Shown: positions 29,840 through 44,513 of the stretch, one piece after another
How positions within the stretch are numbered: the stretch's first letter is position 1
Layout: each line of letters begins with the position of its first letter
NCBI RefSeq assembly: GCF_002864685.1
Contig: NZ_NMQZ01000001.1
Location: 1-64,000, forward strand
Length of the DNA stretch: 64,000 bases
Direction of reading: 5' to 3'
From: Alloalcanivorax mobilis
Lineage (GTDB): Bacteria > Pseudomonadota > Gammaproteobacteria > Pseudomonadales > Alcanivoracaceae
Position numbers and translations under genes: made by a program
The notes under the pieces: model-generated
Database searches by the model: none
What the model saw: the letters and a program-made list of their open reading frames with translations, nothing else
Told to the model about the DNA's origin: nothing

Positions 29840-30030
29840 CCGGCGCTCCGCATCTCATCCAGGTCACCTTCCCACTTAATTTTGCCTCGTAGCTTCCGGA
29901 TTTCCTGCTGCTTGCTACGCTGGACCAGAAGTTTCAGGCCTCGCTCAACGGCCTCCTTTTTGGTTTCGCAGCCAGAGGCTTTCAGGGCTTCGGCCATTAA
30001 TCGGTCGTCAATGACAATGTTCGTTCTCAT
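29836..30030 (-). CDS. vapB: VapB-type antitoxin
   Basis: 64 residues. MRTNIVIDDRLMAEALKASG is the ribbon-helix-helix DNA-binding part of VapB2/Arc-like antitoxins. The C-terminal KLRGKIKWEGDLDEMR would occupy the toxin active site (a Trp/acidic tail). ATG 30030 is preferred to the upstream in-frame codon at 30078, since the family motif begins there. It is the first gene of the module. Confidence 0.92.
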   Translation of the reverse strand: MRTNIVIDDRLMAEALKASGCETKKEAVERGLKLLVQRSKQQEIRKLRGKIKWEGDLDEMRSAG

Positions 30031-30105
30031 GTGGGCACCCATGTGTATCAATATCGAAATCCATACACAATCTACCACTTTAGATAGAACACAACAATTG
30101 GCTGT

Positions 30106-30157
30106 ACAGCGTCCGATTTTCCGCCGCTTTGCGGCTCCAAACCGGCGCCCGAGCCGG
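30106..30157. repeat. Direct repeat flanking vapBC, right copy
   Basis: ACAGCGTCCGATTTTCC, GCCGCTTTGCGGCTCCAA and GAGCCGG match 29384-29433 in order. This copy contains a perfect GCCGC-TTT-GCGGC hairpin. It lies between vapB and the tetR stop. Confidence 0.6.
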
Positions 30158-30177
30158 GTGTTTGACCCGAGGAAAGG

Positions 30178-30783
30178 TCACTCCGAACCCAATTGCTTCT
30201 CCAAGCCGGCAATGGCGATGCGCGCCACCTCCATTAGCCGTGTCTGGTCCATGCCTTCCCGGGCGCTGGCGGAAAGCCCTGACATCGTGCTGGTGACAAA
30301 GTCGGTGACCGCCGCGGCGCACTCGGGATGGGTGCGGGCGATGAACTGGCGGATCCGGTTACGGCGCTGCTCGGCGACGCGGCGCGCGTGGGTCGCGCTG
30401 TCATCGCCGTCCTGCCCTCGCGCGGCTTCGAGAACAAGACAGCCGCGCTGCTCCGGATCCTGTGTGTAGGTTCTGGCGGCACTCTCCAGCAGGGCCGCCA
30501 GGGCCTGCGCCGGCGGTCGGCCCGGCTGCAAGATGTCATCCAGCGCCAGCGCGGATTGCGCGTAGCGCTCCAGCACTCTTGAGAAAAACGCCGCCTTGCT
30601 GCCGAACGCCTTGTAAAAGCTGGGCGGTTTCACCCCCAGGGCGTCGGTCAGCGCCGCCAACCCCACGGCGTCGTAGCTGCTGGCATGAAACAACCGCTGC
30701 CCTGTGTCCAAGGCGGTTTCCGTGTCGAAGCCACGGGGGCGGCCACGGCGGGCCGGCTGCTTCGCATTTTCTTTAGTGACCAT
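30178..30783 (-). CDS. TetR family transcriptional regulator
   Basis: 201 residues. The N-terminal helix-turn-helix reads LAALTDALGVKPPSFYKAFGSKAAFF (about residues 42-67, split). The C-terminal ligand domain has the TetR_C_6-like look of YcdC/AcrR-type repressors, with a CLVLEAARG segment. It is divergent from an SDR gene with 101 bases between; a palindrome there (30828-30841) is the likely operator, so it probably represses the SDR-dehydrogenase pair and itself. Confidence 0.92.
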   Translation of the reverse strand: MVTKENAKQPARRGRPRGFDTETALDTGQRLFHASSYDAVGLAALTDALGVKPPSFYKAFGSKAAFFSRVLERYAQSALALDDILQPGRPPAQALAALLESAARTYTQDPEQRGCLVLEAARGQDGDDSATHARRVAEQRRNRIRQFIARTHPECAAAVTDFVTSTMSGLSASAREGMDQTRLMEVARIAIAGLEKQLGSE

Positions 30784-30827
30784 TACAAAATCCTTGCGCG
30801 TGCGTTCCGTATGATTTTATAGTGATT

Positions 30828-30841
30828 GCTAACCAATTAGC
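30828..30841. promoter_or_regulatory. TetR operator candidate
   Basis: GCTAA-CCAA-TTAGC is a perfect inverted repeat with five-base arms in the 101-base gap between the divergent tetR and SDR genes, of the size and place of a TetR-family operator. Confidence 0.5.
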
Positions 30842-30884
30842 CAGCCGAGGCACTCTCGGTGCTTTTCGTCCGCGGGAGGACATC

Positions 30885-31736
30885 ATGAACAAGACATGGT
30901 TGATCACCGGTTGCTCCAGTGGCCTCGGTCTACATATTGCTCAGGCCGCCGCCGCCCGTGGCGACAACGTCGTTGCCACGGCCCGCGACCCGGACACGCT
31001 GCGCGACCTCGCCGAGCGTTTTCCGGACCGGGTGCGCACCGCCCGGCTCGACGTTACCGAGCCCGAGTCGGCGGCGGCCGCCATCGCGCTCGCCGAGCGC
31101 GACTTCGGCGGCTTCGATGTGCTGGTCAACAACGCCGGGTATGGCCTGATCGGCGCGCTGGAAGAGGCGGAGCCGGAGGAGTACCGCCCCATGTTCGAGG
31201 TCAATGTTTTCGGCCTGATCGAAACCACGCGGCGGGCCTTGCCGGTGCTGCGCCGCAGGCGCGGAGCCCGCATCGTCAACCTGTCGTCCGGGGCGGGAAT
31301 TTCTGGAGGCGCCGGTTCCGGCCACTACAGTGCCACCAAGTTCGCGGTGGAAGGCCTCTCGGAGGCGCTGGCCAGGGAAGTGGCGCCGCTGGGTGTGCGC
31401 GTGATCATCGTCGAGCCCGGCCCGTTTCGTACCGGGTTTCTGGGGCGCTCCATCGCCACCGCCGAGAGAGAGATGGAGGTCTACGCCGGGACGGCGGGCC
31501 AGCGGCGTGCTTATCGGGAGAGTAATGACGGCAGGCAGGCCGGCGATCCGGAGAAGGCCGCGGCGGTCATCCTGCGGGCGGTCGATGCGGACCATCCGCC
31601 GCTCCATTTACCGCTGGGGCCGGTCGCCTACGGCATCGCCGAGCGCAAGCTCGAAGCGTTCCGCTCGGACATGGAAGCCTGGCGGTCTGTCGCCATTGAT
31701 ACCGACTACGGACCAACAGCAGAGGTGGCGCCATGA
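30885..31736 (+). CDS. SDR family oxidoreductase
   Basis: 283 residues, classical short-chain dehydrogenase. It shows the cofactor motif TGCSSGLG (about 8-15), NNAGYG (about 84-89) and the catalytic Tyr-x-x-x-Lys as HYSATK (Tyr about 148) after the Ser at about 135 in NLSSGAG. The basic residue after the first strand (ARDPD) suggests NADP. ATG 30885 is preceded by GGGAGGA. The stop overlaps the start of the next dehydrogenase by four bases. Probably controlled by the divergent TetR; substrate unknown. Confidence 0.93.
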   Translation: MNKTWLITGCSSGLGLHIAQAAAARGDNVVATARDPDTLRDLAERFPDRVRTARLDVTEPESAAAAIALAERDFGGFDVLVNNAGYGLIGALEEAEPEEYRPMFEVNVFGLIETTRRALPVLRRRRGARIVNLSSGAGISGGAGSGHYSATKFAVEGLSEALAREVAPLGVRVIIVEPGPFRTGFLGRSIATAEREMEVYAGTAGQRRAYRESNDGRQAGDPEKAAAVILRAVDADHPPLHLPLGPVAYGIAERKLEAFRSDMEAWRSVAIDTDYGPTAEVAP

Positions 31737-32599
31737 AGATTGGATTGATCGGCCTGGGCGCAATGGGCCGCGCCATGGCGCGCAATCTGGTTACCGCCGG
31801 GCACACGGTGACGGCCTGGAACCGCTCCGGCGGCGAGCTCGACGGCGTGACGATGGCCTCCACACCGGAGGAGGCTTTTCAGGGCGATGCGGTGCTGACC
31901 ATGCTCTCCGATGACGCGGCGGTGCGCGAGGTGCTGCTGGATGCCGGTGTGCTGGAGCGGGCGAAGCCGGGGCTGACGCATGTCATGACCTCGACCATCT
32001 CGGTGGCGTTTTCGCACCAGTTGGTCGCGCTGCATGCCCGGGCCGGTGTTGATTACATTGCCGCGCCAGTGCTGGGCAGGCCGGATGTGGCGGCCAAAGG
32101 CGAGCTCAATATCCTCGCCGGCGGCGCGCCGGCGGCCATTGAACGCATGCGCCCCGTCTTCGAGGCGATTGGCAAGCGGGTGTGGGCCATGGGAGAGAGC
32201 GCGCCCGCCGCCAATGCCGCCAAGATCGCCTGCAACATGATGATCACCATGGCGATCGAGGCGATGGCGGAAGCGGTGGTGCTGACCGAAGCCAACGGCG
32301 TGGAACGCGATCACTTCTTTGAATTGATCCTCGGCACCCTGTTCGGCGCCCGCTCTTATCACGTCTACTCGGCCAACATTCTGGCGGGGGACTACCAGCC
32401 GGGCTTCAAGGCGACACTCGGCCTCAAGGATCTGCGCCTGGCCAGCGAAGCCGCCGAGCAGGCCGGCGGTTCGTTACCGATGCTGGCCGCGGTGCATGAT
32501 CGCATGCGCGACACCGTCGAGGCGGGTTTTGGCGATAGCGACTGGTCGGCCATGGCCGAGTTCACGATTCAGTCCCGGAAAGCCACACTCGGGAAATAA
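31733..32599 (+). CDS. NAD(P)-dependent beta-hydroxyacid dehydrogenase family protein
   Basis: 288 residues, 3-hydroxyisobutyrate-dehydrogenase/imine-reductase superfamily. The Rossmann motif is GLIGLGAMGRAMARNL (residues 4-19), the substrate loop TSTISVAFS (about 86-94) and the catalytic-Lys helix AANAAKIACNMM (about 159-170). DYIAAPVLGRPDVA is typical of the YfjR-like branch. It overlaps the SDR gene (ATGA), and the two may act in successive oxidation or reduction steps. Substrate unknown. Confidence 0.9.
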   Translation: MKIGLIGLGAMGRAMARNLVTAGHTVTAWNRSGGELDGVTMASTPEEAFQGDAVLTMLSDDAAVREVLLDAGVLERAKPGLTHVMTSTISVAFSHQLVALHARAGVDYIAAPVLGRPDVAAKGELNILAGGAPAAIERMRPVFEAIGKRVWAMGESAPAANAAKIACNMMITMAIEAMAEAVVLTEANGVERDHFFELILGTLFGARSYHVYSANILAGDYQPGFKATLGLKDLRLASEAAEQAGGSLPMLAAVHDRMRDTVEAGFGDSDWSAMAEFTIQSRKATLGK

Positions 32600-32656
32600 C
32601 GCGATGGCTGAATCACTAAAATACACAGTCGCCGCCGAGCAGGCCGCTGATTCGAG

Positions 32657-34027
32657 TCATCGGCCCAGGCTGGCCCGGAACGCCGGGTCATCCAGATAGG
32701 CCACATTGAGCCGGGTCCAGGGCACCCGGGCGCGGCGGTCCACCGAGAAAATCGAGCCGGGGGCAAGCATCACGCCCCGCTCCAGGCAGCGGCGGGTCAG
32801 GTCGTTGGCGTCGGCAATGCCGGGGAAGCGGGCCCAAAGATAGAGGCTCTGTTCCGGTCGATGGAACACATCCGCGCCCAGTTCGTCGAGTACGCGCAGG
32901 CCGGTGACGGTGGCGGCGCGCAGCTTTTCCTGCAGCCGCGACAGATGGCGCAGATAATTCCCTTCTCGCAGAATCACGTCCACGGTGCGTTCGGCGTATT
33001 CGGTGCCGCCGATGTGCAGCAGCATTTTCACGTCCGCCAGTTCACTGATCAGGCCTTCGTCGCCGGCCACGAAGCCAACACGCAGGGCAGCGGAAATCGG
33101 CTTTGAGAAACTGCCCACATAGAGGGTCCGCTTGAGCTGGTCCAGGTTGGAGAGCTTGGTGCAGGTATTGAGCTTGAAGTCGGCCATGGCGTCGTTTTCC
33201 ACCACCAGCAGATTGTGCTTTTCCGCCAGCGCCAGAATGCGCCGGGCCTTGTCCTCGGACAGGTCGGTGCCGGTGGGGTTGTGCCCCACCGATTGCATGA
33301 AAAACAGGGCGGGCTTTTCCCGTTCCAGCCAGCGTTGCAGGGCGTTCAGGTCCGGGCCATCGATGCGGCGGGGCACCGGCAGCATGCGCGCGCCCTGCAG
33401 TTGCAGCTTGCCGAACAGGGGGTAATAGCCGGGGCTTTCCACCAGCACCGGGTCACCGGGTTTGACGAAGCGGCGGATGATCAGATCCATGCCATGGTTG
33501 GCGCCGAAGGTGGTGAGAATCTGTGCCGGCGCCGAATTGATGCCATAGCCGGCCAGCTTTTTTACCAGTTGCTCGCGCAAGCTGGCATTGCCGTAGCGAT
33601 TGCCGTAGCGAAACAGGGTGGTAACGCCCCCGCGCACCACCTGGCGATGAAACCGGTCCAGCCGCATGTCCATCAGCCAGTCCACCGGCGGAAACCCTTC
33701 CCCCAGATGAGAATGACCCGGTTCACGGACCAGTTGCTGGCGCATCATCCAGATGGTGTCCAGGGCGCGGGCGTAGGGCGGCGGCGTCTGGTCGCCCTCG
33801 CCGACGGCGGGTACCGCGCGCACAAAGAAACCGCGCCCGTGGCGGGCCTCCACCAGGCCGTCGGCGGCCAGGTATTCATAGGCGGTGATGACGGTGTTCT
33901 TGGAGTGCCCGTGCAGCCGCATATACTCGCGCAGGGACGGCAGCTTGTCGCCCTCGCGCAGGATACCGCCGGCGATCTGGCCCGCGATATCGGACGCGAT
34001 GTTCTGTGAAAGGGTTTGCCGTCGCAT
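32657..34027 (-). CDS. MocR-type (GntR/aminotransferase) transcriptional regulator
   Basis: 456 residues: an N-terminal winged helix (about 1-75, with [20 protein letters not shown] and ARHGRGFFV) and a fold-type I aminotransferase domain (about 90-456). The PLP-binding Lys lies in [17 protein letters not shown] and the conserved Asn in [10 protein letters not shown], so PLP can probably be bound. ATG 34027 is preferred over the in-frame ATG 34051. It is divergent from the HMG-CoA reductase gene with 139 bases between and a palindrome in the gap, so it is the likely regulator of the mvaAB island. Confidence 0.92.
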
Positions 34028-34067
34028 TTTCCCCCGTCCTCCTGGATGCACCCACTGTTCACGCCAA

Positions 34068-34090
34068 CTGTACCTTTTTCATGGGTACAG
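34068..34090. promoter_or_regulatory. Operator candidate of the mvaAB island
   Basis: CTGTACC and GGTACAG are perfect seven-base arms nine bases apart, located in the gap between the divergent MocR regulator and HMG-CoA reductase genes. It is the obvious candidate binding site of the MocR protein. Confidence 0.6.
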
Positions 34091-34166
34091 GCGCCGATAT
34101 GTTAGATCGAAACCGGCGCGATCACACGCGCCCTCTAACAACAACGCTGCCCAGAAGAGGTCTTCA

Positions 34167-35453
34167 GTGACTGCCAGTTCCCAACTCCCCGGTTTCCGCG
34201 ATCTTTCTCCGTCCGAGCGCCTGGAAGTGCTGCGCCGACAGTTCGGGCTGAGCGAAGAGGACACCGCATTGCTGCGCGACCAGGGCGCGCTGCCCATGGA
34301 CATCGCCGACGGCATGATCGAGAACGTGATCGGCAAGTTCGAGCTGCCCCTGGGGCTGGCCGGTAACTTCATGATCAACGGTCGAGACGTGGTGGTGCCG
34401 ATGGCGGTGGAAGAGCCGTCCGTGGTGGCGGCGGCCTCCTACATGGCCAAGCTGGCCCGGCCGGGGGGTGGCTTCCTGACGTCCAGCAGCGCGCCGTTGA
34501 TGCGTGCCCAGATTCAAATCATCGGCCTGGACAATCCTGCCCATGCCCGCCTGAGCCTGCTGCGCCATCGTCAGCGGATCATCGAGCTGGCCAATAGCAA
34601 GGACGCCCTGCTCAACACGCTGGGCGGCGGTTGTCGGGATCTGGAAGTTCATTTGTTCACCGACAGCCCGCGCGGCCCCATGGTGGTGGCGCATCTGGTG
34701 GTGGACGTGCGCGACGCCATGGGCGCCAACACGGTCAACACCATGGCCGAGGCGGTGGCGCCGCTGATGGAGGAAATCACCGGCGGCAAGGTACGGCTGC
34801 GCATCCTGTCCAATCTGGCCGATCTGCGGCTGGCACGCGCCCAGGTCTCCATCGCCCCCGAACACTTTGAAACAGATGCCTTTGCTGGCGCCGACGTGAT
34901 CGACCGTATCATCGACGCCTATACCTTCGCCGCCATCGACCCGTACCGGGCCGCGACTCACAACAAGGGCATCATGAACGGCATCGATCCGCTGATCGTC
35001 GCCACCGGCAACGACTGGCGGGCGGTGGAGGCCGGCGCCCACGCCTGGGCCTGCCGCAACGGCCATTACGGTTCCCTGACCACCTGGGAGAAGGACGCCC
35101 GCGGGCATCTGGTCGGCACCATCGAAATGCCCATGCCGGTGGGCCTGGTGGGCGGCGCCACCAAAACCCACCCGCTGGCGCAATTGTCCCTGCGACTGCT
35201 CGGCGTGAAAACCTCCCAGGAGCTGTCGGAGATCGCCGTGGCGGTGGGCCTGGCGCAGAATCTGGGCGCCCTGCGCGCGCTGGCCACCGAAGGCATTCAA
35301 CGCGGCCATATGGCGCTGCACGCGCGCAATATCGCGCTGTCCGCCGGCGCTCGGGGCGATGAAGTGGATCAGCTGGTGCGGCAGATGGTGGAGAACCACG
35401 ACGTGCGCGCGGACCGCGCGGAAGCGCTGCTGAAAGCGTTGCGCGACCAATGA
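34167..35453 (+). CDS. mvaA: Hydroxymethylglutaryl-CoA reductase, class II (degradative)
   Basis: 428 residues, the length of the Pseudomonas mevalonii enzyme, which oxidises mevalonate to HMG-CoA with NAD and CoA. Catalytic residues are visible: Glu in [18 protein letters not shown] (about residue 50-80), Lys in [13 protein letters not shown], Asp in VATGNDWR and the C-terminal His in [13 protein letters not shown]. It lacks the membrane domain of class I enzymes. The start is GTG 34167 with AGAAGAGG upstream. Its stop overlaps the HMG-CoA lyase start (ATGA). It diverges from a MocR regulator. Confidence 0.96.
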
Positions 35454-36370
35454 GCGAGGCGGTCCGGCTGGTGGAGGTCGGCGCCCGGGACGGGCTTCAG
35501 AACGAAGCCCGCTCTCTGCCGGCGTCGGTGCGCGCCGGGTTGATCGAGCGCCTGGCCGACGCCGGCTTAACGCACATCGAGGCGGGCGCCTTCGTGTCGC
35601 CGCGCTGGGTGCCGCAAATGGCCGGCACCGACCAGGTGCTGGCCCGGCTGCCGAAGCGTCCGGGTCTGACTTATAGCGTGTTGGTGCCCAACGAGCGCGG
35701 CCTGAGCGCGGCGCTGGCCGCCGGCGCCTCCGAGGTGGCGGTGTTCACCGCCGCCTCGGAGGCGTTCAACCAACGCAATATCAACTGCTCCATCGCCGAA
35801 AGCCTGGCCCGGTTCGAGCCGGTGCTGGCACAGGCGAGAGCCCAGGGCGTGCCGGTGCGAGGCTATGTGTCCTGTGTGCTGGGCTGCCCTTACCAGGGCG
35901 ACGTGCCGGTGGCGCAGGTGGTGCGCGCCGCATCCGGGTTGGCGCGGTTGGGCTGCCATGAAATCAGCCTCGGCGATACCATCGGCGCCGGCGTGCCCTC
36001 GGCGGTGAGACAACTGCTCTCGGCCTGCGCCACGGAACTGCCGCTGGACCAACTGGCGGTGCACTTTCATGACACCCAGGGCATGGCGGTGGCCAACTGC
36101 CTCGCCGCCCTGGAACAGGGCGTGCGCGTGTTCGACAGCTCGGTGTCCGGTTTGGGCGGCTGCCCCTATTCGCCCGGCGCCACCGGCAACGTGGCCAGCG
36201 AGGAGCTGGTGTACCTGTTCGAAGGTCTGGGCCTGAACACCGGCGTGGACCTGGACCGGTTGGTGGCCGCCGGCGACTTTGTGGACCGGCACCTGGGCCG
36301 CGCCACCCAATCCCGGGTGGCGCGGGCCCGCCACGCCGCCAATACGACAATAAATTCGGAGAAGACATGA
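35450..36370 (+). CDS. mvaB: Hydroxymethylglutaryl-CoA lyase
   Basis: 306 residues, TIM-barrel lyase splitting HMG-CoA into acetyl-CoA and acetoacetate. It shows [12 protein letters not shown] (catalytic Arg-Asp), [16 protein letters not shown], the metal-binding HFHDTQG and the signature [17 protein letters not shown] with the catalytic Cys. Length fits mvaB of P. mevalonii. It overlaps mvaA upstream and the CoA-transferase downstream by four bases on each side, so the three are one translational unit. Confidence 0.95.
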
Positions 36371-37596
36371 TCGATAACACCGGCCTGACCATGCCGCCAA
36401 AGGGCGCGCTCAAGGATGTCATCATCCTCGACCTGACCCGCGTCGTGGCCGGCCCCTACTGCGCCATGCTGCTTGCCGACATGGGCGCCACGGTGATCAA
36501 GATCGAGCATCCTCGCGACCCGGATCTGACGCGCGCTTTTCCTCCGGCCCTCGGCGCAAGCGACGACGCCATCAGCGGCTTCTTCGCGCAATACAACCGA
36601 AACAAGATGGCGATCAGCCTCGACCTCAAAGCGGCCGCCGGGCGGCAACTGTTCCTGGAGATGGTGGCCAAAGCGCACATCGTTCTGGAGAATTTCCGGC
36701 CCGGCACCATGAACAAACTGGACCTGGGTTACGACGTGCTCAAAGCGGCCAACCCGGCCATCGTCATGACCTCGATCAGCGGCTTCGGCCAGATTGGCGC
36801 CAACGCGCCGCGCCCGGCGTTCGACAGCAGCGCCCAGGCGTCCGGCGGCCTGTGGTCGATGAACGGCACCGTGGAGGAACCGATGCGCGTGGGCACCGTG
36901 CTCGGTGATCTGAGCGCCGCACTGTACGGCGCCATCGGCGCCCTGGGCGCGCTGCGCGAAGCGGAACGCAGCGGCCAGGGCCAGCAGGTGGACATCTCCC
37001 AACAGGACTCGATCATCTCGCTCACCGAAAACGCCCTGGTCAACTACACCACCACCGGCAAAGTAGCGGTGCCGGAAGGCAATGGCCACCCATTCGTTAA
37101 ACCCTACGGGCGCTTTGCCTGCAAGGACGGCTATGTGTTCTTCGGTGCCTACACGGACAAGTTCTGGCGGGAGGCCTGCCTGGTGTTCGGCGACGAAGCC
37201 CTGATCAACGATCCGGAAATCGACACCATGGCCAAGCGCTTCGACCACGAGGTCTATCAGCGCCGGGTGCATCCGGTGGTGGAACGCTGGTGCGCCGCCT
37301 ATACCAAGGACGAACTGGAAACCATGACCGGCTCCCGGTTCCCCCTGTCGCCGATCAAAACCATCGATGAGGTGGTCGAGGACCCGCACGTTCGTGAACG
37401 GGACATGGTCATTCCAGTGGAATATCGCGGCACCCGTTTCCAGGTGTTCGGCAACCCGGTGAAGATGTCCGGCGGCACCAACGAACGGGATGCCCGCGCC
37501 CCCACCGTGGGCGAGTCCAACCAGGCGGTGTATCAGGGCTGGCTGGGCCGCTCGGAGGAGGAATTGGAAGCATTGCGGAGGGACGGCGTGGTGTAA
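36367..37596 (+). CDS. CaiB/BaiF family (class III) CoA-transferase
   Basis: 409 residues. The family start reads LKDVIILDLTRVVAGPYCAMLLADMGATVIKIEHP (about residues 17-50, split), with NRNKMAISLDLK, ENFRPGTM and the catalytic Asp region ARPAFDSSAQASGGL (Asp about 156). These enzymes move CoA between carboxylic acids (for example succinyl-CoA to a dicarboxylate). In an operon with HMG-CoA reductase and lyase, HMG, methylglutaconate or a related acid is a reasonable acceptor, but this is inference. Its start overlaps mvaB; a 58-base gap separates it from dctP. Confidence 0.92.
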   Translation: MIDNTGLTMPPKGALKDVIILDLTRVVAGPYCAMLLADMGATVIKIEHPRDPDLTRAFPPALGASDDAISGFFAQYNRNKMAISLDLKAAAGRQLFLEMVAKAHIVLENFRPGTMNKLDLGYDVLKAANPAIVMTSISGFGQIGANAPRPAFDSSAQASGGLWSMNGTVEEPMRVGTVLGDLSAALYGAIGALGALREAERSGQGQQVDISQQDSIISLTENALVNYTTTGKVAVPEGNGHPFVKPYGRFACKDGYVFFGAYTDKFWREACLVFGDEALINDPEIDTMAKRFDHEVYQRRVHPVVERWCAAYTKDELETMTGSRFPLSPIKTIDEVVEDPHVRERDMVIPVEYRGTRFQVFGNPVKMSGGTNERDARAPTVGESNQAVYQGWLGRSEEELEALRRDGVV

Positions 37597-37654
37597 CGTC
37601 GCCCCTTCTCTTATCTGTTAAAAAAACCATTAAACAACAAAATAAGGTACCGCT

Positions 37655-38806
37655 ATGAACGGCAAAAGTTTCGCCAGCCTGGCGCTGGTCTGTACCGTCC
37701 TGTTCGGCACACTCGCCGGCACCGCCGACGCCCGTACCCTGCGTTACGCCATTGGCCATCCGCCCAGCTCTTTCGTGGTCGATGTGGCCAAGCAGTACGC
37801 CAATACCGTCGAGGAACGCTCGGACGGTGATCTGAAAGTGCGCATCTTTCCCATGTCACTGCTGAATTTCGCCGAGACCTCCGGTGGCGTACGCGACGGC
37901 ATGGCGGACATCGGCTTCGTGCTGACTTCCTACTTCCCGTCCGAGTTTCCGCACAGCAATGTGGCGGTGGAAGCCTCCATGCTGGTGAGCCTGCTGGGCG
38001 AAAAGGCGCGCGGCCGGGAAGGCATGATCTTCATGGGCGCACTGTCCGAGTTCACTTTCTTTAAGTGCCCGGAGTGCAACCAGGAGTTCAAAAATCAGAA
38101 CCAGGTTTACACCGGCAGCACCGGCGGCACCTCCTATGGGCTGGTGTGCAATAAGCCAGTGGAAACGGAAGCGGATCTGAAAGGCATGCGGCTGCGCGTG
38201 GGCGCCGCCAATTGGTCGCGCTGGGCCGAGGCAGTGGGCGCCTCGCCGGTGACCATGTCCGCCAACGAAATGTTCGAGGCCCTGAGCCAGGGCGTGGTGT
38301 CCTGCATCGTGCTGGCCTCGCCGGAAATTCATAACTTCGGTCTCACCGACGTGGTCACCGACATCAATATGGACGTGCCCGGCGGCCCGATGCCAATCGC
38401 CGGTACCAACATCAATGCCGACACCTGGAAGGACCTGTCCGAGGAACAGCGCACCGTGATGCTGCGCGCCGCCAGTGTGTTCTCCGCCGGCGTACCCTGG
38501 ATTTACCACCAGCACGAAGATCGCATTCTCTCCGAGGCCAAGGAGCGCGGTGTCCGAATCCATCACGCCGGTCAGGCACTGATCGATAAGAACCGCGCCT
38601 TTATCGAGCAGGACATGCGCCATATCGCCGAGGACTACAAAGCCCGCTATGGGGTCAAGAATGGCGTGGCTCTGATAAAGGAATTCCGAGCGCTGTTGGA
38701 AAAGTGGACCGACCTGGTTCAGGACGTGGACAGCGAGGACGCTCTGGCCGATCTCTACTGGCAGGAAATTTTCTCCAAGGTGGACGTCAGCAAACACGGT
38801 CTTTAA
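37655..38806 (+). CDS. TRAP transporter solute-binding protein (DctP family)
   Basis: 383 residues, longer than most DctP proteins. It has a signal peptide (about 1-27, GTADA), then the DctP fold with GTSYGLVCNKPVETEADLKGMRLRV and the family Arg region. It binds an organic acid in the periplasm for the DctQ/DctM permease encoded downstream. Unusual are a CPECNQ pair and further cysteines (about residues 133, 136, 167 and 215) that could form disulphides. An AT-rich leader with AAGGT precedes ATG 37655. The ligand is unknown; mevalonate or HMG is inferred from the operon. Confidence 0.9.
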   Translation: MNGKSFASLALVCTVLFGTLAGTADARTLRYAIGHPPSSFVVDVAKQYANTVEERSDGDLKVRIFPMSLLNFAETSGGVRDGMADIGFVLTSYFPSEFPHSNVAVEASMLVSLLGEKARGREGMIFMGALSEFTFFKCPECNQEFKNQNQVYTGSTGGTSYGLVCNKPVETEADLKGMRLRVGAANWSRWAEAVGASPVTMSANEMFEALSQGVVSCIVLASPEIHNFGLTDVVTDINMDVPGGPMPIAGTNINADTWKDLSEEQRTVMLRAASVFSAGVPWIYHQHEDRILSEAKERGVRIHHAGQALIDKNRAFIEQDMRHIAEDYKARYGVKNGVALIKEFRALLEKWTDLVQDVDSEDALADLYWQEIFSKVDVSKHGL

Positions 38807-38810
38807 GAGT

Positions 38811-38838
38811 ACGGCGCCCCCCGTGGCGTCGCCCTTTT
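38811..38838 (+). terminator. Weak terminator-like hairpin after dctP
   Basis: GGCGCC and GGCGTCGCC can pair imperfectly and are followed by CTTTTTTC. Partial termination here would give more binding protein than permease, as is common in transporter operons. The stem is weak. Confidence 0.35.
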
Positions 38839-38860
38839 TTCTTTAGTTGGCGATAAAAGC

Positions 38861-39316
38861 ATGAGCATTCTCACCGACGAGATTCGTGCGCTGATCGGCA
38901 CCGAGGTGGCGCCGTTCGAATTCGAAATCAGCCGCAACGATATCCGCAAGTACGCCGTGGCCACCGGCCAGCGCCAGCGCCGTTATCTGGACGGCGACGA
39001 AGCACCGCTGTTGTTTTTGTTCAGTGCCATGATGCCGGTGGTGCCATTGAATGAGTTGCTGCCCGATGGTCGCCAGCCGGACAGTCCGCTGATTCCGGAA
39101 CTACCGCTCAAACGCATCATGGCCGGTGGCAGCGAGTACCGTGTCCACGGACGGATCCTGCCCGGCCAGGTGCTGGTCTGCCGGCAGAAGCTGGCCAATC
39201 TTTACGAAAAACAGGGCAGCGCCGGGCCGCTGATTTTCATGGTGTTCGAAAACCGTTTCGAAACCCGGGACGGCGAACCCGTGGTCACCGAATATCTCAC
39301 TCGGATTGCGAGGTAA
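38861..39316 (+). CDS. MaoC-like dehydratase, N-terminal half (FAS1-like hot-dog domain)
   Basis: 151 residues. The FAS1-type dehydratase N-terminal domain is seen: FEISRNDIRKYAVATG near the start, PLLFLFSAMM, and RIMAGGSEYRVHGRILPGQ. It lacks the catalytic Asn/His pair, which is on the next protein. In the mesaconyl-C4-CoA hydratase/itaconyl-CoA hydratase group, this N-domain and a C-domain form one double hot-dog; here they are split into two genes five bases apart. Likely half of an enoyl-CoA hydratase for a branched dicarboxylic acyl-CoA. Confidence 0.82.
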   Translation: MSILTDEIRALIGTEVAPFEFEISRNDIRKYAVATGQRQRRYLDGDEAPLLFLFSAMMPVVPLNELLPDGRQPDSPLIPELPLKRIMAGGSEYRVHGRILPGQVLVCRQKLANLYEKQGSAGPLIFMVFENRFETRDGEPVVTEYLTRIAR

Positions 39317-39321
39317 CCGTC

Positions 39322-39732
39322 ATGCCCACCTCCATGGTCGCCGTTGGCGATACCCTGAAAACACGTCGCTTCGAAGCGGACAGCGTGCAGCTTTTTCTCT
39401 ACAACGCAGCGATCTGGAACCCACACCGTATTCATTATGACCTGCCCTATACGCGCGAAACCGAAGGCCACCCGCAACTGCTCATCGACGGCCCCTTACA
39501 GGGCGACTGGCTCACGCAGATCGTCGAGGAATGGCTGAACGGCCGGGGCGTGCTCGAGTCCTTCGAGTACAGCAATCGTCTGGCCGCGTATCTCGGCGAC
39601 GTGCTGACCGGAGCCGGCGAGGTGGTCGAGTGCGATGACCACGGCGCCACGCTCAACCTGACCTTGAACAATCAGAACGATAAAACCACCACCGTGGCCA
39701 CCGCCCGGGTGCGCTTCCAGGCACGAGCCTGA
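39322..39732 (+). CDS. MaoC-like dehydratase, catalytic C-terminal half
   Basis: 136 residues. The hydratase-2 active-site motif AAIWNPHRIHYDLPYT (about 29-44) carries the Asn and His, followed by EGHPQLLIDGPLQGDWL, which is close to mesaconyl-C4-CoA and related hydratases. It must pair with the preceding N-domain protein. In this operon it could hydrate 3-methylglutaconyl-CoA to HMG-CoA or act on a related C5/C6 acyl-CoA; this is inference. The dctQ permease gene follows after 28 bases, with GGGGGAGAG as ribosome site. Confidence 0.85.
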   Translation: MPTSMVAVGDTLKTRRFEADSVQLFLYNAAIWNPHRIHYDLPYTRETEGHPQLLIDGPLQGDWLTQIVEEWLNGRGVLESFEYSNRLAAYLGDVLTGAGEVVECDDHGATLNLTLNNQNDKTTTVATARVRFQARA

Positions 39733-39760
39733 ACCGGCCCTTGGGCCTGGGGGAGAGAAC

Positions 39761-40339
39761 ATGATGTACCGGCTAGGACGTTGGCTCTCCGGGCTGACGG
39801 ATTTCACCACGCTGATCGGTGGCCTCGCCATCGCTCTGATGATGCTGCATATCACCACCGATGTGGTGTTGCGTTTCCTGCTGTCTTCGCCGCTTCCCGG
39901 CACCATCACCTATGTGTCGAACTACTACATGGTGATCGCCGCGTTCGTGCCCCTGGCCTACGCGGAGAAACTCGATGCCCATGTGAGCGTGGAAGTGGTG
40001 GTGGAGCGCCTGCCCCGCAATCTGCAGCGTCATCTGGCGCATTGGCTTTTGCCGGCCAGCGCCACGGTGCTCGGCTTCATGACGGTGAAGACCTGGGACG
40101 AGGCGATCAACAAATATCACAGCGGCGCCGCTTTGGTGGAAGGCGGCACCACCATCATTACCTGGCCTGGCTATTTCATGCTGCCCCTGGGGCTTGGGCT
40201 GATGGTGTTGGTCCTGGTCTACAAGTTTCTGATTTATCTGACCGGCGCCCGCTGTGGGCTGCGCGTCAGCGAGCAAGAGCGCCGTCGCGAGGCGGACGTG
40301 CGCCCGCACGGTGACCGCGAGGACGCCCATCATGAGTGA
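39761..40339 (+). CDS. TRAP transporter small permease (DctQ family)
   Basis: 192 residues with four membrane helices (about 20-38, 53-71, 93-112, 136-160). ITTDVVLRFL and the sequence before LPGTITYVSNYYMVIAAFVPL carry the usual DctQ pattern. It forms the integral part of the TRAP permease with DctM. Its stop lies eight bases inside the dctM start. The C-terminal tail is unusually charged. Intact, although the dctM partner has a nonsense codon. Confidence 0.92.
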   Translation: MMYRLGRWLSGLTDFTTLIGGLAIALMMLHITTDVVLRFLLSSPLPGTITYVSNYYMVIAAFVPLAYAEKLDAHVSVEVVVERLPRNLQRHLAHWLLPASATVLGFMTVKTWDEAINKYHSGAALVEGGTTIITWPGYFMLPLGLGLMVLVLVYKFLIYLTGARCGLRVSEQERRREADVRPHGDREDAHHE

Positions 40340-41639
40340 TGTGCAGATCGGCCTGTCCGGGCTGGCGGCGCTGCTGGTGCTGATCGCCCTGCGTTTGCCG
40401 GTGGCCCTGGCCCTGATCGGCGTGTCATTCGGCGGCCTCTGGTACATGATGGGCTGGGGCATCGCCTGGGGCTCGCTGGCTCTGATTCCCTATCAGTTCT
40501 CCGCCAACTGGGTGCTCAGCTCGGTGCCCATGTTTCTGTTGCTCGGCTACGTGTGCTACCACGCGCAGTAGACCCAGGGTCTGTTTCGGGCAGCGCGCCT
40601 GTGGCTGACCCGCATTCCCGGCGGCCTGGCGGTGGCGTCGATTTTCGGCACCACCGGCTTCGCCGCCGTGTGCGGCTCGTCGGTGGCCTGCTCCGCGGCC
40701 ATGGGCCGGGTGGCGGTGCCGGAGATGATCCAGCACCGCTACCAGCCCGGCCTGGCCACCAGCACCGTGGCCATCGCCGGTACCGTGGGCGCGCTGCTGC
40801 CGCCGTCAATCATCATGATTCTGTACGGCATCATCGCCCAGGAGTCGATCACCAAACTGTTCCTGGGCGGCATCGCCGCGGGCCTGATCACGGTGCTCGG
40901 CTACATCGTCGTGGTGGTCACCCGGGTCAAGCTGAACCCGGCGCTGGCGCCCGCCACCGACGAGCACATCGACCGCGCCGAAAAGTGGAAGGCCCTGTGG
41001 GAAGTCTGGCCGGTGGTGATGATCATGGTGGGTATTTTCGGCGGCCTGTTCGCCGGCCTGTTCACCCCCACCGAAGCCGGCGCCGTGGGTGCCGCGCTGG
41101 CCTGCCTGGTGGCCCTGTGCAAACGCACCCTCACCTGGGGACGTTTCCGCGAGGCCATTCTGGAAACGCTGCTGACCACCGGCACGCTGCTGATCATTGC
41201 CATGGGCGCCAGCCTGCTGACGCGTTTCCTGTCCCTGTCCGGGGCCGGTGACTTTCTGTCGTCGCTGGTGATCGACGCTGGCGCCAGCACCTTCATGGTG
41301 CTGCTGATCATCGTGCTGATCTATCTGCTGCTGGGCATGTTTCTGGAACCGATCGGCGCCATGCTGCTGACCCTGCCCATCGTGCTGCCGATCATCGACA
41401 GCCTCGACCTCAGCCTGATCTGGTTCGGCGTGGTGCTCACCAAGTTACTGGAGATCGGCATGGTGACCCCGCCCGTCGGCATGAACATTTTCGTGATCAA
41501 GAGCGTGGTCGGGGATCTGGTCAACACCGGCGCCATCTTCAAGGGCGTGCTCTGGTTCCTGGTGATGGATCTGCTGGTGCTGACGGTGCTGATGGCGTTC
41601 CCCGACATTATTCTGTTCCTGCCCCGCGTGCTCGGCTGA
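40332..41639 (+). pseudogene. TRAP transporter large permease (DctM family), amber-interrupted
   Basis: One frame from ATG 40332 to 41639 encodes a full DctM of about 435 residues, broken by a TAG at 40569-40571 after residue 79. The upstream part ends SVPMFLLLGYVCYHAQ, and the downstream part resumes TQGLFRAARLWLTRIPGGLA. The family normally has a Leu there, so TTG to TAG is a one-base change. No other damage is seen, so the mutation is recent, a sequencing error, or tolerated by suppression. A restart at 40632 would lose two or three helices. Confidence 0.85.
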
Positions 41640-41651
41640 ACGGCGCGCGGC

Positions 41652-42650
41652 TCAGGACTCCGCCCGCGATTGCAGCCACACGGTCAGCCCCTGGCTGTTG
41701 AGCCTGGCGTCCATGTCCAGTATTGCTTCCAGGGCGTCGTCATCCAGCTGACAACCATGATCCAGCGCCGCGCCGGACAGATAGGCCAGCATCGCTTCGT
41801 GGAGCACCTCTTGCCATTCGTCCACTGCCAGGCCGGCGGCGATGCTTTCCGCCACCGTCACATAGTCATCGATCATCCCCTGCAACCGCTCGCCCAGGGG
41901 TCGCGGGTGCTCGACCATGCCGTAATGGGTCAGGTACAGGCGCTCGGGGTTGAGCTCAAGCAACGTGTTGATGGACGCCTTCAGGGCCGGCGGGTCGAAC
42001 TGCACCGGGGTGGTGGTGGGGAAAATAAACGGACCATGTTCAGTGGTCAGCGCCGGGTAGGAAATGCCGAAGGTGTCGCCGGTGAAGATGCCCGCCGAGG
42101 CCGGATCGTGCACGCAGAAGTGGTGTTTGGCGTGGCCGGGGGTGTCGTAAAAGATCAGCTCGCGGTCGCCGACGGTGAGGCGTTCGCCGTCTTCCATGAT
42201 GCGTACCCGGCTTTCGTCCACGGGGATTACGTCACCGTAGATCCTGGCAAAGGTCGCCTCGCCATACACCGCCATGGCGCCAGCCTTGAGCCGGGCCGGG
42301 TCAATCATGTGCCGGGCGCCCCGGGGGTGGATCAGCAGAGTGGCGCCGGGCAGTGCCCGCATCAGGCCGCCCGCGCCGCCGGCGTGGTCCAGGTGCACGT
42401 GGGTGGGGATCACGTATTTCACCTGCTCGGGGCGAATCCGCCGTTGCTCGAGCAACTCAAGAATGATCGGCACCGTGTGGTGGGTGCCGGTTTCGATGAT
42501 GGCGTAATCATCGCCGCCCTTGAGCAGGTAACAGGCGGCCAGCTCATCGCGCACCATGGCGGTGTCGATGCGGGTAATGTGGTGGCCGAGGTCTTGGTAG
42601 CGCTGAAAGGACATGGCTGGGCGGGCTCCTGGCGGGTTGGCGTGGTTCAT
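41652..42650 (-). CDS. MBL-fold metallo-hydrolase
   Basis: 332 residues, metallo-beta-lactamase fold. The dinuclear metal site is THVHLDHAGG (about 112-121), with further ligands in DTPGHAKHHFCVHD, FTGDTFG and LTHYG. This branch resembles uncharacterised hydrolases of thioesters or lactones. The start may be ATG 42650 or ATG 42614 (MSFQRYQDLG), where homology probably begins. It follows the DoeB-like gene by 47 bases in the same direction, and converges with the broken dctM after 12 bases. Confidence 0.88.
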   Translation of the reverse strand: MNHANPPGARPAMSFQRYQDLGHHITRIDTAMVRDELAACYLLKGGDDYAIIETGTHHTVPIILELLEQRRIRPEQVKYVIPTHVHLDHAGGAGGLMRALPGATLLIHPRGARHMIDPARLKAGAMAVYGEATFARIYGDVIPVDESRVRIMEDGERLTVGDRELIFYDTPGHAKHHFCVHDPASAGIFTGDTFGISYPALTTEHGPFIFPTTTPVQFDPPALKASINTLLELNPERLYLTHYGMVEHPRPLGERLQGMIDDYVTVAESIAAGLAVDEWQEVLHEAMLAYLSGAALDHGCQLDDDALEAILDMDARLNSQGLTVWLQSRAES

Positions 42651-42697
42651 GGTTCCAAAAACCGGCGCCCTCGTCGAGCCGTCGGTGCTGGCGGGGC

Positions 42698-43684
42698 TCA
42701 GCCCACGGCCAGCACCGCGAAGGTGTCACCCAGGGCGATTTTCGCCGGGTGACGGCGGCCAATAACAATGCCGTCGACGCCGGCGCGGTACTCCGCTGGG
42801 GCAACACCGGTGCGCTCCATGGAATACACCCGGGCGATCAGATCGCCGACGCGCACGGCATCGCCAAGATTAACCACGAATTCCAGCAATCCGGCGTGCT
42901 CGCTGTGCAGGTAGTGAGCCGCGTCGGGGATTTCCAGCATTCGGGTGGCCGCTGACGTCGGCGCGCCAGCGAGGATGCCGGCGTGGCGGAGCAGGTTTTC
43001 GGCGCCGCGTTCGGCCAGCGCCACCGATTCTGGCGTGGAGGTGCCGCCGCCGCGCAATTCGGTGCTGACGAACACCTTGCCCTGACCTTCCACCACGGTG
43101 TCGAACAGGGCGTCGCCCTCCAATTCCGCCATCAACAAGGTATTCGGGGCTCCGAAGGCGAGGGTCGCCTCCATGCAGCGCCGGGCCAGTTGTTCGTCTT
43201 CCAGCCGGTGGGTGGCGGCGAAGGGCAGCAGGTCCAGGGTGCGGCCTCCCGAGTGCATGTCCAGCACCAGATCGCTGATCGGCACCAGATAACGGGTGAA
43301 ATAATCGGCGATCCGCTCGGTCAGTGTGCCGGTGGGGCTGCCGGGGAAGGCGCGGTTGAGGTTGCCCTTGTCGATCGGCGAGGTACGGGTGCCATTGAGC
43401 GCGGCGGGGTGGTTCATCATCGGCACGATGATCACCCGGCCGGTGAGGTCCTCGGCGCGCAAACGGTTGGCCAGCTTGATCAGGGCGGTGATGCCCTCGT
43501 ATTCGTCGCCGTGGTTGCCGCCGGTGAGCAGCGCGGTGGGGCCCGCCCCGTTGCGCACCACGGTGATGGGAATCATCAGACTGCCCCAGGCGGAGTCATC
43601 GTGGGAGTGGGGCAACTTGAGAAAGCCGTGCTGAACGCCGTCCAGCTCAAAGTCCACGGTGGCGGTGATCGGGCTGGGCAGCAT
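42698..43684 (-). CDS. DoeB-like N-acyl amino acid deacylase (AstE/AspA family)
   Basis: 328 residues of the zinc succinylglutamate desuccinylase/aspartoacylase family. TGGNHGDEYEG (His and Glu ligands), RTSPIDKGNLNRAFPG and LDMHSGGRTLD (third His) are present. The start MLPSPITATVDFELDGVQHG and the overall pattern are close to DoeB, the N-acetyl-diaminobutyrate deacetylase of ectoine breakdown. No other ectoine gene is in the window, so the substrate is uncertain. It is divergent from gmk and is followed by an MBL hydrolase in the same direction. Confidence 0.87.
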   Translation of the reverse strand: MLPSPITATVDFELDGVQHGFLKLPHSHDDSAWGSLMIPITVVRNGAGPTALLTGGNHGDEYEGITALIKLANRLRAEDLTGRVIIVPMMNHPAALNGTRTSPIDKGNLNRAFPGSPTGTLTERIADYFTRYLVPISDLVLDMHSGGRTLDLLPFAATHRLEDEQLARRCMEATLAFGAPNTLLMAELEGDALFDTVVEGQGKVFVSTELRGGGTSTPESVALAERGAENLLRHAGILAGAPTSAATRMLEIPDAAHYLHSEHAGLLEFVVNLGDAVRVGDLIARVYSMERTGVAPAEYRAGVDGIVIGRRHPAKIALGDTFAVLAVG

Positions 43685-43738
43685 GGCGTCTCCTGTGATT
43701 GTTGGCGGCCGGCCGGGGCCGGTTCATTTCCCACGCCC

Positions 43739-43768
43739 ATGACGGGCCGGCGGCTTTGGCCCTATAAT
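43739..43768 (+). promoter_or_regulatory. Sigma-70 promoter of gmk
   Basis: A perfect TATAAT at 43763-43768 and ATGACG at 43739-43744, 18 bases apart, stand about 84 bases before the gmk start. Confidence 0.65.
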
Positions 43769-43851
43769 GCCCGTTTTCGCGGCGGGGCCGGCAGCGATTT
43801 CGCGTCATGCCCGGCGCCCCGCCACGCCCCGGAAAACAGGAACCCCACGTT

Positions 43852-44484
43852 ATGGCCGATAAAGGCACCCTGTACATTGTTTCGGCCCCCTCGGGCGCGG
43901 GCAAGACCTCTCTGGTGGCGGCGCTGGTGGACAAGCTGCCACGGCTGAAGATCTCGATCTCGCACACCACCCGGCCCCGTCGCGAGGGCGAAGTGGACGG
44001 CCAGAACTACCACTTTATCGAGCGCCGTGACTTCGTGCGGCTGGTGGAGGAAGGCCGTTTCCTGGAGCACGCCGAGGTGTTCGGTAACCTCTATGGCACC
44101 AGCGCCGACTGGGTGGCAGGATCCCTGCGCGGCGGCGAGGACGTGATCCTCGAGATCGATTGGCAGGGCGCCTCGCAGATTCGCCATGTGATGCCCGAGG
44201 CGGTCAGCATCTTTATTCTGCCGCCCTGCCTGAAGACCCTGGCCGGGCGGCTGCGCAGCCGCGCTTCCGACGACGAAACCGTGATCCAGCGCCGGCTGGC
44301 CGGCGCCCGCGAAGAGATGAGCCACTACGGCGAATTCGACTATCTGGTGGTCAACGACAACTTCGAGCATGCCCTTCACGAGCTGTCCGCCATCGTCGAG
44401 GCGAACCGCCTGACCACCGACCGCCAGGCGGTTCGCCAGGCCGCCACGCTCGCCGACTTGTTGTCAGGCCCCGAAACCCAGTAA
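43852..44484 (+). CDS. gmk: Guanylate kinase
   Basis: 210 residues converting GMP to GDP with ATP. It shows the P-loop [12 protein letters not shown] (about 11-22), [19 protein letters not shown], the GMP site FGNLYGTS and [13 protein letters not shown] 43852 is chosen because AGGAA precedes it and the P-loop spacing is normal; the open frame begins at 43807. It stands in the conserved order gmk-rpoZ-spoT, which links guanine nucleotide supply with the stringent response. Confidence 0.97.
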
Positions 44485-44513
44485 AATCCCGCTCCCTGCA
44501 ACAGGAGAACACC

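Follow-up and report, generated by a model that had tools for sequence, protein, structure and literature searches.

Known routes

Bacterial HMG-CoA reductase was reportedly characterised from bacteria that grow on mevalonate, and in Pseudomonas mevalonii its gene, mvaA, is said to form an operon with mvaB; to our knowledge, the natural source of mevalonate for such bacteria is not settled. In carnitine metabolism, the family III CoA-transferase CaiB works together with the hydratase CaiD, and the two recycle CoA between crotonobetaine and carnitine. Itaconate catabolism comprises a CoA-transferase, an itaconyl-CoA hydratase and a citramalyl-CoA lyase. The fungal siderophores coprogen, fusarinine C and TAFC contain an anhydromevalonyl group, which is made from mevalonate via SidI and SidH (excerpts of PMC3709128 and PMC10500206). 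Methylglutaconyl is another siderophore acyl group (excerpt of PMC10500206), and siderophores can serve bacteria as a carbon source for growth (excerpt of PMC10866069).

Gene content of the locus

The window, that is, the whole stretch of 64,000 nucleotides of DNA of the marine bacterium Alloalcanivorax mobilis that was analysed, carries a run of nine genes at positions 32657–41639, the nearest kin of which are found in Alloalcanivorax. A MocR-type regulator gene is divergent from mvaA, mvaB and caiB, which are followed by dctP, two MaoC-fold genes, dctQ and dctM. The earlier note had described this gene content and order, and all nine genes are indeed found in their places, as are the overlaps of four bases that it had reported between mvaA and mvaB and between mvaB and caiB. 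MocR, mvaA, caiB, dctP, both MaoC-fold genes, dctQ and dctM occur together in 10 of the 12 relatives read, six of which also have mvaB. No Rfam family reaches its gathering score in 30000–45000. Two genes beyond dctM were considered as partners and rejected: the MBL-fold gene (41652–42650), a candidate mevalonolactonase, lies next to the cluster in no more than 5 of the 12 relatives, and the M14 deacylase gene (42698–43684) adjoins gmk also in three relatives that lack the cluster, and is therefore a backbone gene.

The regulator (32657–34051, minus strand) harbors a GntR helix-turn-helix and an aminotransferase-like domain (PF00392 and PF00155, both above cut-off), its best NCBIfam model being PdxR with 200 bits, under the cut-off of 320. 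Its gene is linked to the island in 12 of 12 relatives. Its start is unsure: the 464-residue frame opens with GTG, and alignments with the ten closest relatives span 454 or 457 residues. The true start may lie some codons inside the frame. Between this gene and mvaA lies the palindrome CTGTACC-N9-GGTACAG (34068–34090), the sole exact match in its own genome, with the left half-site CTGTACC kept in all 11 aligned intergenic stretches. It is a candidate operator, from which the divergent MocR protein would control the operon. Neither this palindrome nor the stop codon in dctM (see below) appears in the earlier note.

MvaA (34167–35453, plus strand, GTG start) is a class II degradative HMG-CoA reductase, scoring 426.2 bits against TIGR00532 (cut-off 259.95). 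It matches PDB 1qax (E=1.3e-218), which we take to be the P. mevalonii enzyme, and has E83, K267, D283 and H381, presumably the catalytic positions. MvaB (35450–36370, plus strand), whose overlapping gene shares the operon of the reductase, reaches 432 bits against NF004283 (cut-off 246), and the HMG-CoA lyases 2ftp and 2cw6 are among its PDB matches. The third enzyme (36367–37596, plus strand) is a family III (CaiB) CoA-transferase with 377 bits against PF02515 and an Asp181 that is invariant in the 10 sequences aligned. No NCBIfam model reaches its cut-off with this protein, which obtains 128.9 of the 413 bits set for carnitine CoA-transferase (NF002914) and 308 of 700 for the mesaconate-transferase. 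It also resembles the succinate–hydroxymethylglutarate CoA-transferase 9br6 (E=8e-48), which YfdE and others outscore.

MaoC-fold subunit 1 (38861–39316, plus strand) matches PF13452 (FAS1_DH_region, E=5.8e-21). Subunit 2 (39322–39732, plus strand) has no Pfam match, but its residues 16–60 match the itaconyl-CoA hydratase 8khg/8huc (E=1.3e-9 for 8khg), and the motif N33-x-H35-R36-I37-H38-x-D40 is invariant in 17 sequences. Subunit 1 is predicted to be the non-catalytic half of a hydratase and subunit 2 the catalytic one.

Co-occurrence of the CoA-transferase, the hydratase and mvaA

Of the 235 CaiB relatives found, the survey covers the loci of the best 80. Genes were called there by simple frame and GC3 rules instead of a gene finder, and some neighbours were named by eye, such as the ligases of loci L153 and L154; the CaiB of Rhizobium sp. 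CC-CFT758, split over two frames, was omitted from the CaiB alignment. Among these best 80 of 235, a hydratase gene is present in 70 loci, as the MaoC pair in 26, where subunit 1 stays beside CaiB, and as a crotonase in 44. In the tree, a branch with 100/100 support has the CaiB rows of MaoC-type loci together on one of its sides. The hydratase folds swap between loci, and the conserved element is therefore hydration itself. For three crotonases of the module, the NCBIfam matches listed include no methylglutaconyl-CoA hydratase model and none that passes its cut-off. A close relationship of the crotonase to fungal SidH was considered and rejected, SidH (7oeq) ranking 40th among the PDB matches.

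All 70 genomes with CaiB–hydratase loci (from the best 80 of 235) have mvaA, in the locus in 68 and elsewhere in two; in none of them does the pair occur with mvaB in the absence of mvaA. The locus includes the lyase gene mvaB in 40 of the 70; 29 of the other 30 genomes have a lyase homologue elsewhere (E ≤ 1e-40). The earlier note had named TRAP, CoA-transferase and MaoC genes travelling together without mvaAB as a finding that would speak against it. For CaiB and the MaoC genes, no such case is seen as to mvaA (0 of 26 MaoC-type loci), mvaB being missing from the locus in 3 of 26. There are also loci with mvaA, MocR and an importer that give no CaiB, crotonase or MaoC subunit 1 match, in Ruegeria, Tistrella, Paroceanicella, Sulfitobacter and Rhizobium etli, and therefore the CaiB–hydratase pair is an add-on to MvaA. 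Since mvaA is found in all 70 genomes with a hydratase at the locus, and mvaB in no more than 40 of these loci, this add-on is tied to mvaA, which fits a product that would enter at mevalonate rather than at HMG-CoA.

The remaining 10 of the 80 loci have no hydratase match at E ≤ 1e-6, and none of their genomes has mvaA above the cut-off. Their CaiB rows are gathered on a single side of a branch (100/99), next to crotonase rows, so that hydratase and mvaA were most simply lost together. Six of the ten are on contigs shorter than 12 kb, four of these showing less than 1.5 kb downstream of CaiB, and several of the genomes are MAGs; genes may thus be missing on these accounts. Across 369 genomes sampled evenly from the class, with at most 4 or 5 preliminary candidates scored in each, CaiB (E ≤ 1e-110) and DctP (E ≤ 1e-60) are each found, among the matches listed, in their own genome only (1/369), and the reductase family in 27.

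The transporter

The solute-binding protein DctP (37655–38806, plus strand) passes the cut-offs of PF03480 and NF037995; its nearest solved relative, 4p56 (E=2.8e-19), is too distant for naming a ligand, and this approach was rejected. The small permease gene dctQ (39761–40339, plus strand; PF04290) is followed by dctM (40332–41639, plus strand), which has an in-frame TAG at codon 80 (40569–40571) and matches PF06808 on the piece downstream of it, so that the DctP–DctQ–DctM set is incomplete in this assembly. None of the 10 relatives that carry dctM has an internal stop when checked by coordinates; the TAG is therefore either a nonsense mutation of recent origin or an error of the assembly. 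A second DctQM lies elsewhere in the genome, 57% and 75–80% identical.

The earlier note had made the TRAP importer part of the system. It is not a fixed partner, as 18 of the 26 MaoC-type loci have a tripartite tricarboxylate permease instead and 8 have this TRAP; with the transporter replaced in most loci, a fixed link between TRAP and substrate was rejected. Across the survey, transporters and accessory genes vary widely (TRAP, tripartite tricarboxylate and several ABC types, with hydantoinase-like genes in Actinomycetota). No literature was found on mevalonate combined with TRAP transporters.

Siderophore-type neighbours

In three lineages, Luteimonas, Steroidobacteraceae and Pelomonas, the core has genes for an FhuE-like receptor (coprogen-type), for esterases and for an amidase next to it. 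The best FhuE-like receptor of the genome is within about 10 kb of CaiB in seven genomes of these lineages, the FhuE probe having been taken from one of the loci later tested with it. The linked receptors match best to FhuE, a receptor named for coprogen and rhodotorulic acid. All seven genomes also have a PAF-AH-like esterase there, five have an ArgE-type deacylase, and the five whose flank was read have both an amidase and an FMN/hydrolase fusion. At E ≤ 1e-15, 11 siderophore-type probes have no match in the 26 MaoC-type loci, 22 of which have 10 kb on both sides, or in the window itself. Two distant matches, to a TonB receptor (locus L097, 24% identity) and to an amidase (L121, 28%), were not counted as siderophore genes. 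A close amidase homologue is also absent from the 13 MaoC-type hosts tested (matches in 4 of 13, at best 43% identical).

Proposed route and alternatives

The model that we consider moderately probable proposes that the island degrades an unsaturated mevalonate precursor, most likely trans-anhydromevalonate (5-hydroxy-3-methylpent-2-enoate), through mevalonate. The acid would be imported by the TRAP system here and by other importers in relatives, and CaiB would transfer CoA onto it from a presumed donor. The MaoC pair, or the crotonase in most other bacteria, would then hydrate anhydromevalonyl-CoA to mevalonyl-CoA, whose CoA CaiB would hand to the next anhydromevalonate, releasing mevalonate. 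MvaA would oxidise mevalonate to HMG-CoA, and MvaB would cleave the latter into acetoacetate and acetyl-CoA. The proposed route is the reverse of the fungal one from mevalonate to anhydromevalonyl by SidI and SidH. As counter-points, MvaA may be there because mevalonate, too, is consumed by the hosts, the 11 siderophore-type probes found no such genes at MaoC-type loci, the kind present in the window, and the crotonase is not especially near fungal SidH.

Of the earlier reading, the following is supported: the island serves mevalonate/HMG-CoA catabolism and has a regulator of its own, its CoA-transferase and hydratase keep to mvaA, and acetoacetate and acetyl-CoA are the predicted end. The fixed importer and the entry at HMG-CoA are not supported. 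According to that entry, which we regard as unlikely, CaiB charges 3-methylglutaconate or HMG, the hydratase converts 3-methylglutaconyl-CoA to HMG-CoA for MvaB to cleave, and MvaA serves mevalonate in parallel. Such logic mirrors itaconate catabolism, and MaoC-fold subunit 2 resembles itaconyl-CoA hydratase, CaiB resembles 9br6, outscored as this is, and methylglutaconyl also occurs in siderophores (excerpt of PMC10500206). It needs no MvaA, yet MvaA is present in 70 of 70 genomes with the pair, and why the pair follows mvaA more strictly than mvaB in the locus (40 of 70, never without mvaA) is left unexplained.

It could also be argued that the same CaiB and hydratase take both 3-methylglutaconate and anhydromevalonate, with MvaA and MvaB covering both siderophore acyl groups. 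Tolerance is common among family III CoA-transferases and hydratases, both acids are 3-methyl-2-enoates sharing the reacting part, and both acyl groups are found in fungal siderophores (excerpt of PMC10500206); against it stands the best match of the linked receptors to FhuE, with its coprogen and rhodotorulic acid, and we consider such a mixture rather improbable. That some other acid ending at mevalonate, such as a different unsaturated or cyclic relative, is the substrate and the siderophore neighbours a lineage-specific addition would agree with the wide variation of transporters and accessory genes, but we found no linked gene set pointing to another acid as specifically as that of FhuE, amidase and esterase, and we likewise consider this rather improbable.

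A possible fungal source

Under the anhydromevalonate model, the module may tentatively be seen as the missing bacterial pathway for consuming the isoprenoid acyl arm that fungal hydroxamate siderophores carry. In Luteimonas, Steroidobacteraceae and Pelomonas, most of the work would fall to a single locus, of which Alloalcanivorax and pseudomonads would have retained just the final part, to use free acid that other organisms release. In the three lineages, FhuE-like uptake would be followed by esterases acting on the ester bonds and the amidase on the hydroxamate bond, a deacylase would handle N-alpha-acetylornithine in two of them, with an amino-acid permease in two, and CaiB, hydratase and MvaA would process anhydromevalonate. 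Among the matches listed, no literature report of genes for the anhydromevalonyl part of siderophores was found. If the proposal is true, one source of mevalonate is the acyl arm of fungal siderophores, which would be food besides iron carriers in fungal–bacterial contact; a marker gene set for soils and hyphae, and enzymes joining anhydromevalonate and mevalonate, would become available.

Comparison with known systems

With the SidI/SidH branch by which fungi make fusarinine and coprogen, the island would share mevalonate, mevalonyl-CoA and anhydromevalonyl-CoA as intermediates, as far as the excerpts on that branch go; the crotonase is not specially close to SidH, and the island would run in the reverse direction, with a CoA-transferase in place of the ligase. 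Itaconate catabolism has the same family logic, including a MaoC-fold hydratase (PF13452; 8khg). The island differs in that its lyase is an HMG-CoA lyase, no CitE-type (citramalyl-CoA lyase) Pfam match occurring among the 10 proteins scanned, in that none of the pairs read comes without mvaA, and in the low score of CaiB for mesaconate-transferase. The carnitine system is alike by analogy, in that a family III CoA-transferase and a hydratase would link an enoate to a 3-hydroxy acid through their CoA esters and recycle the CoA, whereas here CaiB stays far below the carnitine cut-off, the hydratase has the MaoC fold and the product would go to MvaA. With P. mevalonii the island shares a class II degradative HMG-CoA reductase of the same family and an HMG-CoA lyase in one operon, to which it adds CaiB and the hydratase, the MocR regulator and the TRAP genes; judged by its genes, it is probably a variant of mevalonate catabolism in which CaiB and a hydratase have been added to the known mvaA–mvaB pair.

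Gene content and regulation of the island

The island (32657-41639) carries a MocR regulator on the reverse strand, followed on the forward strand by mvaA, mvaB, caiB, dctP, two MaoC-fold genes, dctQ and dctM. All nine genes claimed by the earlier note are found at the positions it gave, and the four-base overlaps that it described among the first three enzyme genes are confirmed for mvaA/mvaB and mvaB/caiB. One correction concerns dctM, in which codon 80 (out of 435) is an in-frame TAG (40569-40571). Because dctM is without internal stops in all ten relatives that have it, either the stop arose recently or the assembly is wrong here. The genome (4.1 Mb, 92 contigs; nearest named kin Alloalcanivorax and Alcanivorax) harbors a second DctQM pair, 57% and 75-80% identical and with a full-length DctM, along with another DctP; as a guess, it might substitute for that of the island. 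Three further DctP paralogues (L152:7456-8583, L153:7539-8678 and L154:2634-3770) are 43-47% identical to the island's DctP; acyl-CoA-ligase-like genes, judged by eye, lie beside two of them, and one of the three regions also has a DctQM pair.

With 426 bits, MvaA clears the cut-off (260) of the model for degradative HMG-CoA reductases, and among solved structures it matches 1qax, the enzyme of Pseudomonas mevalonii, very closely (E=1.3e-218). MvaB is complete and scores 432 bits as an HMG-CoA lyase (cut-off 246); CaiB belongs to the family III CoA-transferases and exceeds no model's cut-off in the NCBIfam search. Together, the two small MaoC-fold proteins resemble an itaconyl-CoA-hydratase-like protein split in two: the first contains PF13452, and the second matches part of itaconyl-CoA hydratase (E about 1e-9) and retains N-x-H-R-I-H-x-D in 17/17 sequences. 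The palindrome CTGTACC-N9-GGTACAG (34068-34090), between MocR and mvaA, has its only exact site in the genome there, and its left half is conserved in all 11 intergenic regions aligned, which come from the window itself, seven members of its family, two Pseudomonas loci and Herbaspirillum; the palindrome is a good candidate for the MocR operator.

Distribution

The same 13 genomes, 13/57 relatives in one search and 13/46 family genomes in another, carry strong matches to mvaA (E below 1e-190) and to this CaiB (E up to 1e-80), with weak matches only (E 1e-4 to 1e-8) in 11 further genomes of the 57-relative search. The full regulator-mvaA-caiB-TRAP-MaoC set is present in 10 of 12 relatives fetched, and six of these ten also have mvaB; in the remaining two, mvaA and caiB are accompanied by a crotonase and ABC-type permeases. 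In three relatives of the genus lacking the cluster, gmk and an M14 gene are kept side by side, and therefore the island adjoins conserved backbone genes. Of 369 genomes sampled evenly across the class, the own genome alone has this CaiB and this DctP; therefore, the module is rare. An MBL-fold hydrolase (41652-42650) adjoins the island and is 68-70% identical in five relatives that have it there, three of which (L028-L030) show higher identity in the island genes (83-97%); in the remaining seven relatives none was found at that place.

Entry point of the CoA-transferase and hydratase

A CaiB-alignment scan of 84,980 species genomes gave 235 relatives, the best 80 of which were taken as named loci and underlie all locus counts. 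A hydratase lies beside CaiB in 70 of the 80, as a MaoC pair in 26 and a crotonase in 44. Of these 70 loci, 68 contain mvaA, which the other two (L073, L118) carry elsewhere in the genome, and 40 contain mvaB; 29 of the 30 genomes without mvaB in the locus encode a homologous lyase at another site (E <= 1e-40), and the thirtieth, L089, is a MAG. The crotonase/MaoC search at E <= 1e-6 found no match in the other ten loci. Four of these are full-length and six come from contigs shorter than 12 kb, with <1.5 kb of sequence downstream of CaiB in four of the six. mvaA above the cut-off is absent from all ten genomes, several of them MAGs, with a single weak sub-threshold match in L107. Thus, presence of the hydratase goes with presence of mvaA, and absence with absence (Fisher p about 6e-13 for the 80 loci, without correction for kinship). 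A CaiB tree of 81 rows, midpoint-rooted only for display, has a branch (100/100) with the MaoC rows all on one side and another (100/99) that does the same for the ten no-hydratase rows, which adjoin crotonase rows; this indicates one hydratase swap and, most simply, one joint loss of hydratase and mvaA.

Seven of the loci where neither was found (L080, L083, L085, L086, L087, L091, L107) adjoin a DsbA-domain protein (PF01323) and, for the most part, an ABC importer of the sugar type. L083 continues with a phosphotransferase (APH) gene, and its ABC permease fused to a strictosidine-synthase/SMP-30-like domain (L083:4573-6774) adjoins a second strictosidine-synthase-like protein; a homologous operon sits after the crotonase in some mvaA-caiB loci (e.g. 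L038/L081). Actinomycetota loci (L041:5331-9580, L110, L114, L126) have hydantoinase/oxoprolinase A and B genes next to the module, which perhaps open a cyclic precursor. In Rhizobium sp. CC-CFT758, CaiB is divided between two reading frames (L040:10457-11649), although the neighbouring mvaA, crotonase and mvaB matches are long.

Ruegeria, Tistrella, Paroceanicella, Rhizobium etli and Sulfitobacter plasmids also carry mvaA with a MocR regulator and an importer, and these loci (about 19 kb each) contain no match to CaiB, crotonase or the first MaoC-fold protein. Therefore, mevalonate use by itself seems to require just MvaA, a lyase and an importer, and CaiB with the hydratase is an add-on accompanying MvaA. 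On two haloarchaeal plasmids (H22, H23), the match to a degradative-type HMG-CoA reductase also carries the annotation of an AtuA-family gene, possibly another mevalonate-linked pathway.

A pair feeding HMG-CoA would track mvaB and be indifferent to mvaA, while for one feeding mevalonate mvaA would be obligatory; the data fit the latter. The pair most likely forms mevalonate out of anhydromevalonate (5-hydroxy-3-methylpent-2-enoate), the enoate whose hydration yields it. The earlier proposal, that an imported mevalonate/HMG-type acid enters through CoA transfer and hydration, is thereby partly retained and sharpened as to substrate and product. It is possible that the module has a dual role, serving 3-methylglutaconate as well as anhydromevalonate. 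3-Methylglutaconate as the substrate, which the earlier note had included, is also possible, since methylglutaconyl is a siderophore acyl group too (PMC10500206), but a pair entering at HMG-CoA is expected to follow mvaB, and this one follows mvaA instead. Three crotonases scanned gave no methylglutaconyl-CoA hydratase model among the matches listed, none of which is over its cut-off.

Siderophore-related neighbours

The anhydromevalonate may come from fungi, which convert mevalonate into anhydromevalonyl-CoA by SidI (ligase) and SidH (hydratase) and place the anhydromevalonyl group into fusarinine C, TAFC and coprogen (PMC3709128 and PMC10500206). SidH is only the fortieth PDB match of the crotonase. 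A TonB receptor accompanies the module in seven crotonase-type loci, four of them from Luteimonas, two from Steroidobacteraceae and one from Pelomonas. For the three receptors examined, one per lineage, the best NCBIfam match is FhuE, the ferric-rhodotorulic acid/ferric-coprogen receptor (403-409 bits, below the 666-bit cut-off). The Luteimonas receptor, taken from L094 so that this lineage is not independent, has a match in seven of eight genomes searched and none in Sphingosinicella (L105); in 7/7 the best genome match lies within about 10 kb of CaiB, a 24 kb neighbourhood being 0.26-0.63% of the searched genomes. A PAF-AH-like esterase is present in all seven receptor-bearing loci. The five with flanks read (all except L115 and L119) also have an amidase and an FMN-binding/alpha-beta-hydrolase fusion. 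An amino-acid permease lies beside the module in Luteimonas and Steroidobacteraceae, and the four Luteimonas loci and that of Pelomonas have an ArgE-type deacylase. Phyllobacteriaceae loci (L079, L092, L098, L099) have instead a dipeptide-type ABC importer, an M20 amidohydrolase and a flavin/2Fe-2S reductase. We infer that these neighbours correspond to the parts of coprogen/TAFC: ester bonds, hydroxamate bond, N-acetyl-ornithine and anhydromevalonyl. The fusion of an FMN-binding domain (PF04299) with an alpha/beta hydrolase (PF07859), seen beside the module at L150:7452-9179, L074:6012-7628 and L077:6004-7626, is possibly a combined reductase-esterase for ferric siderophores.

This fungal link is a bold one. 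Eleven siderophore-type probes (E <= 1e-15) find no match in the 26 MaoC-type loci (22 of them with 10 kb on both sides of CaiB) or in the 64 kb window, and a close amidase homologue is absent from 13 MaoC-type hosts, the own genome included (matches in 4/13, at most 43% identity), so most of the 70 hydratase loci show no sign of siderophores. For the window, the claim is limited to catabolism of the free acid.

Comparison with known systems

The MvaA route of mevalonate catabolism is known. Class II HMG-CoA reductases and their reverse reaction have been described (PMC12292504), and siderophores support bacterial growth as a carbon source (PMC10866069): examples are a Pseudomonas with ferrichrome A, and Mesorhizobium loti and Azospirillum with desferrioxamine B. 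No report of bacterial anhydromevalonate degradation was found among titles and abstract beginnings, a scope that mostly excludes subscription literature, and none on mevalonate with TRAP transporters. The pathway variant is apparently new, this negative being no proof of novelty. In carnitine metabolism, the CoA-transferase CaiB and the hydratase CaiD convert an enoate to the free 3-hydroxy acid; by the same proposed logic, the island's CaiB and hydratase would make mevalonate from anhydromevalonate.
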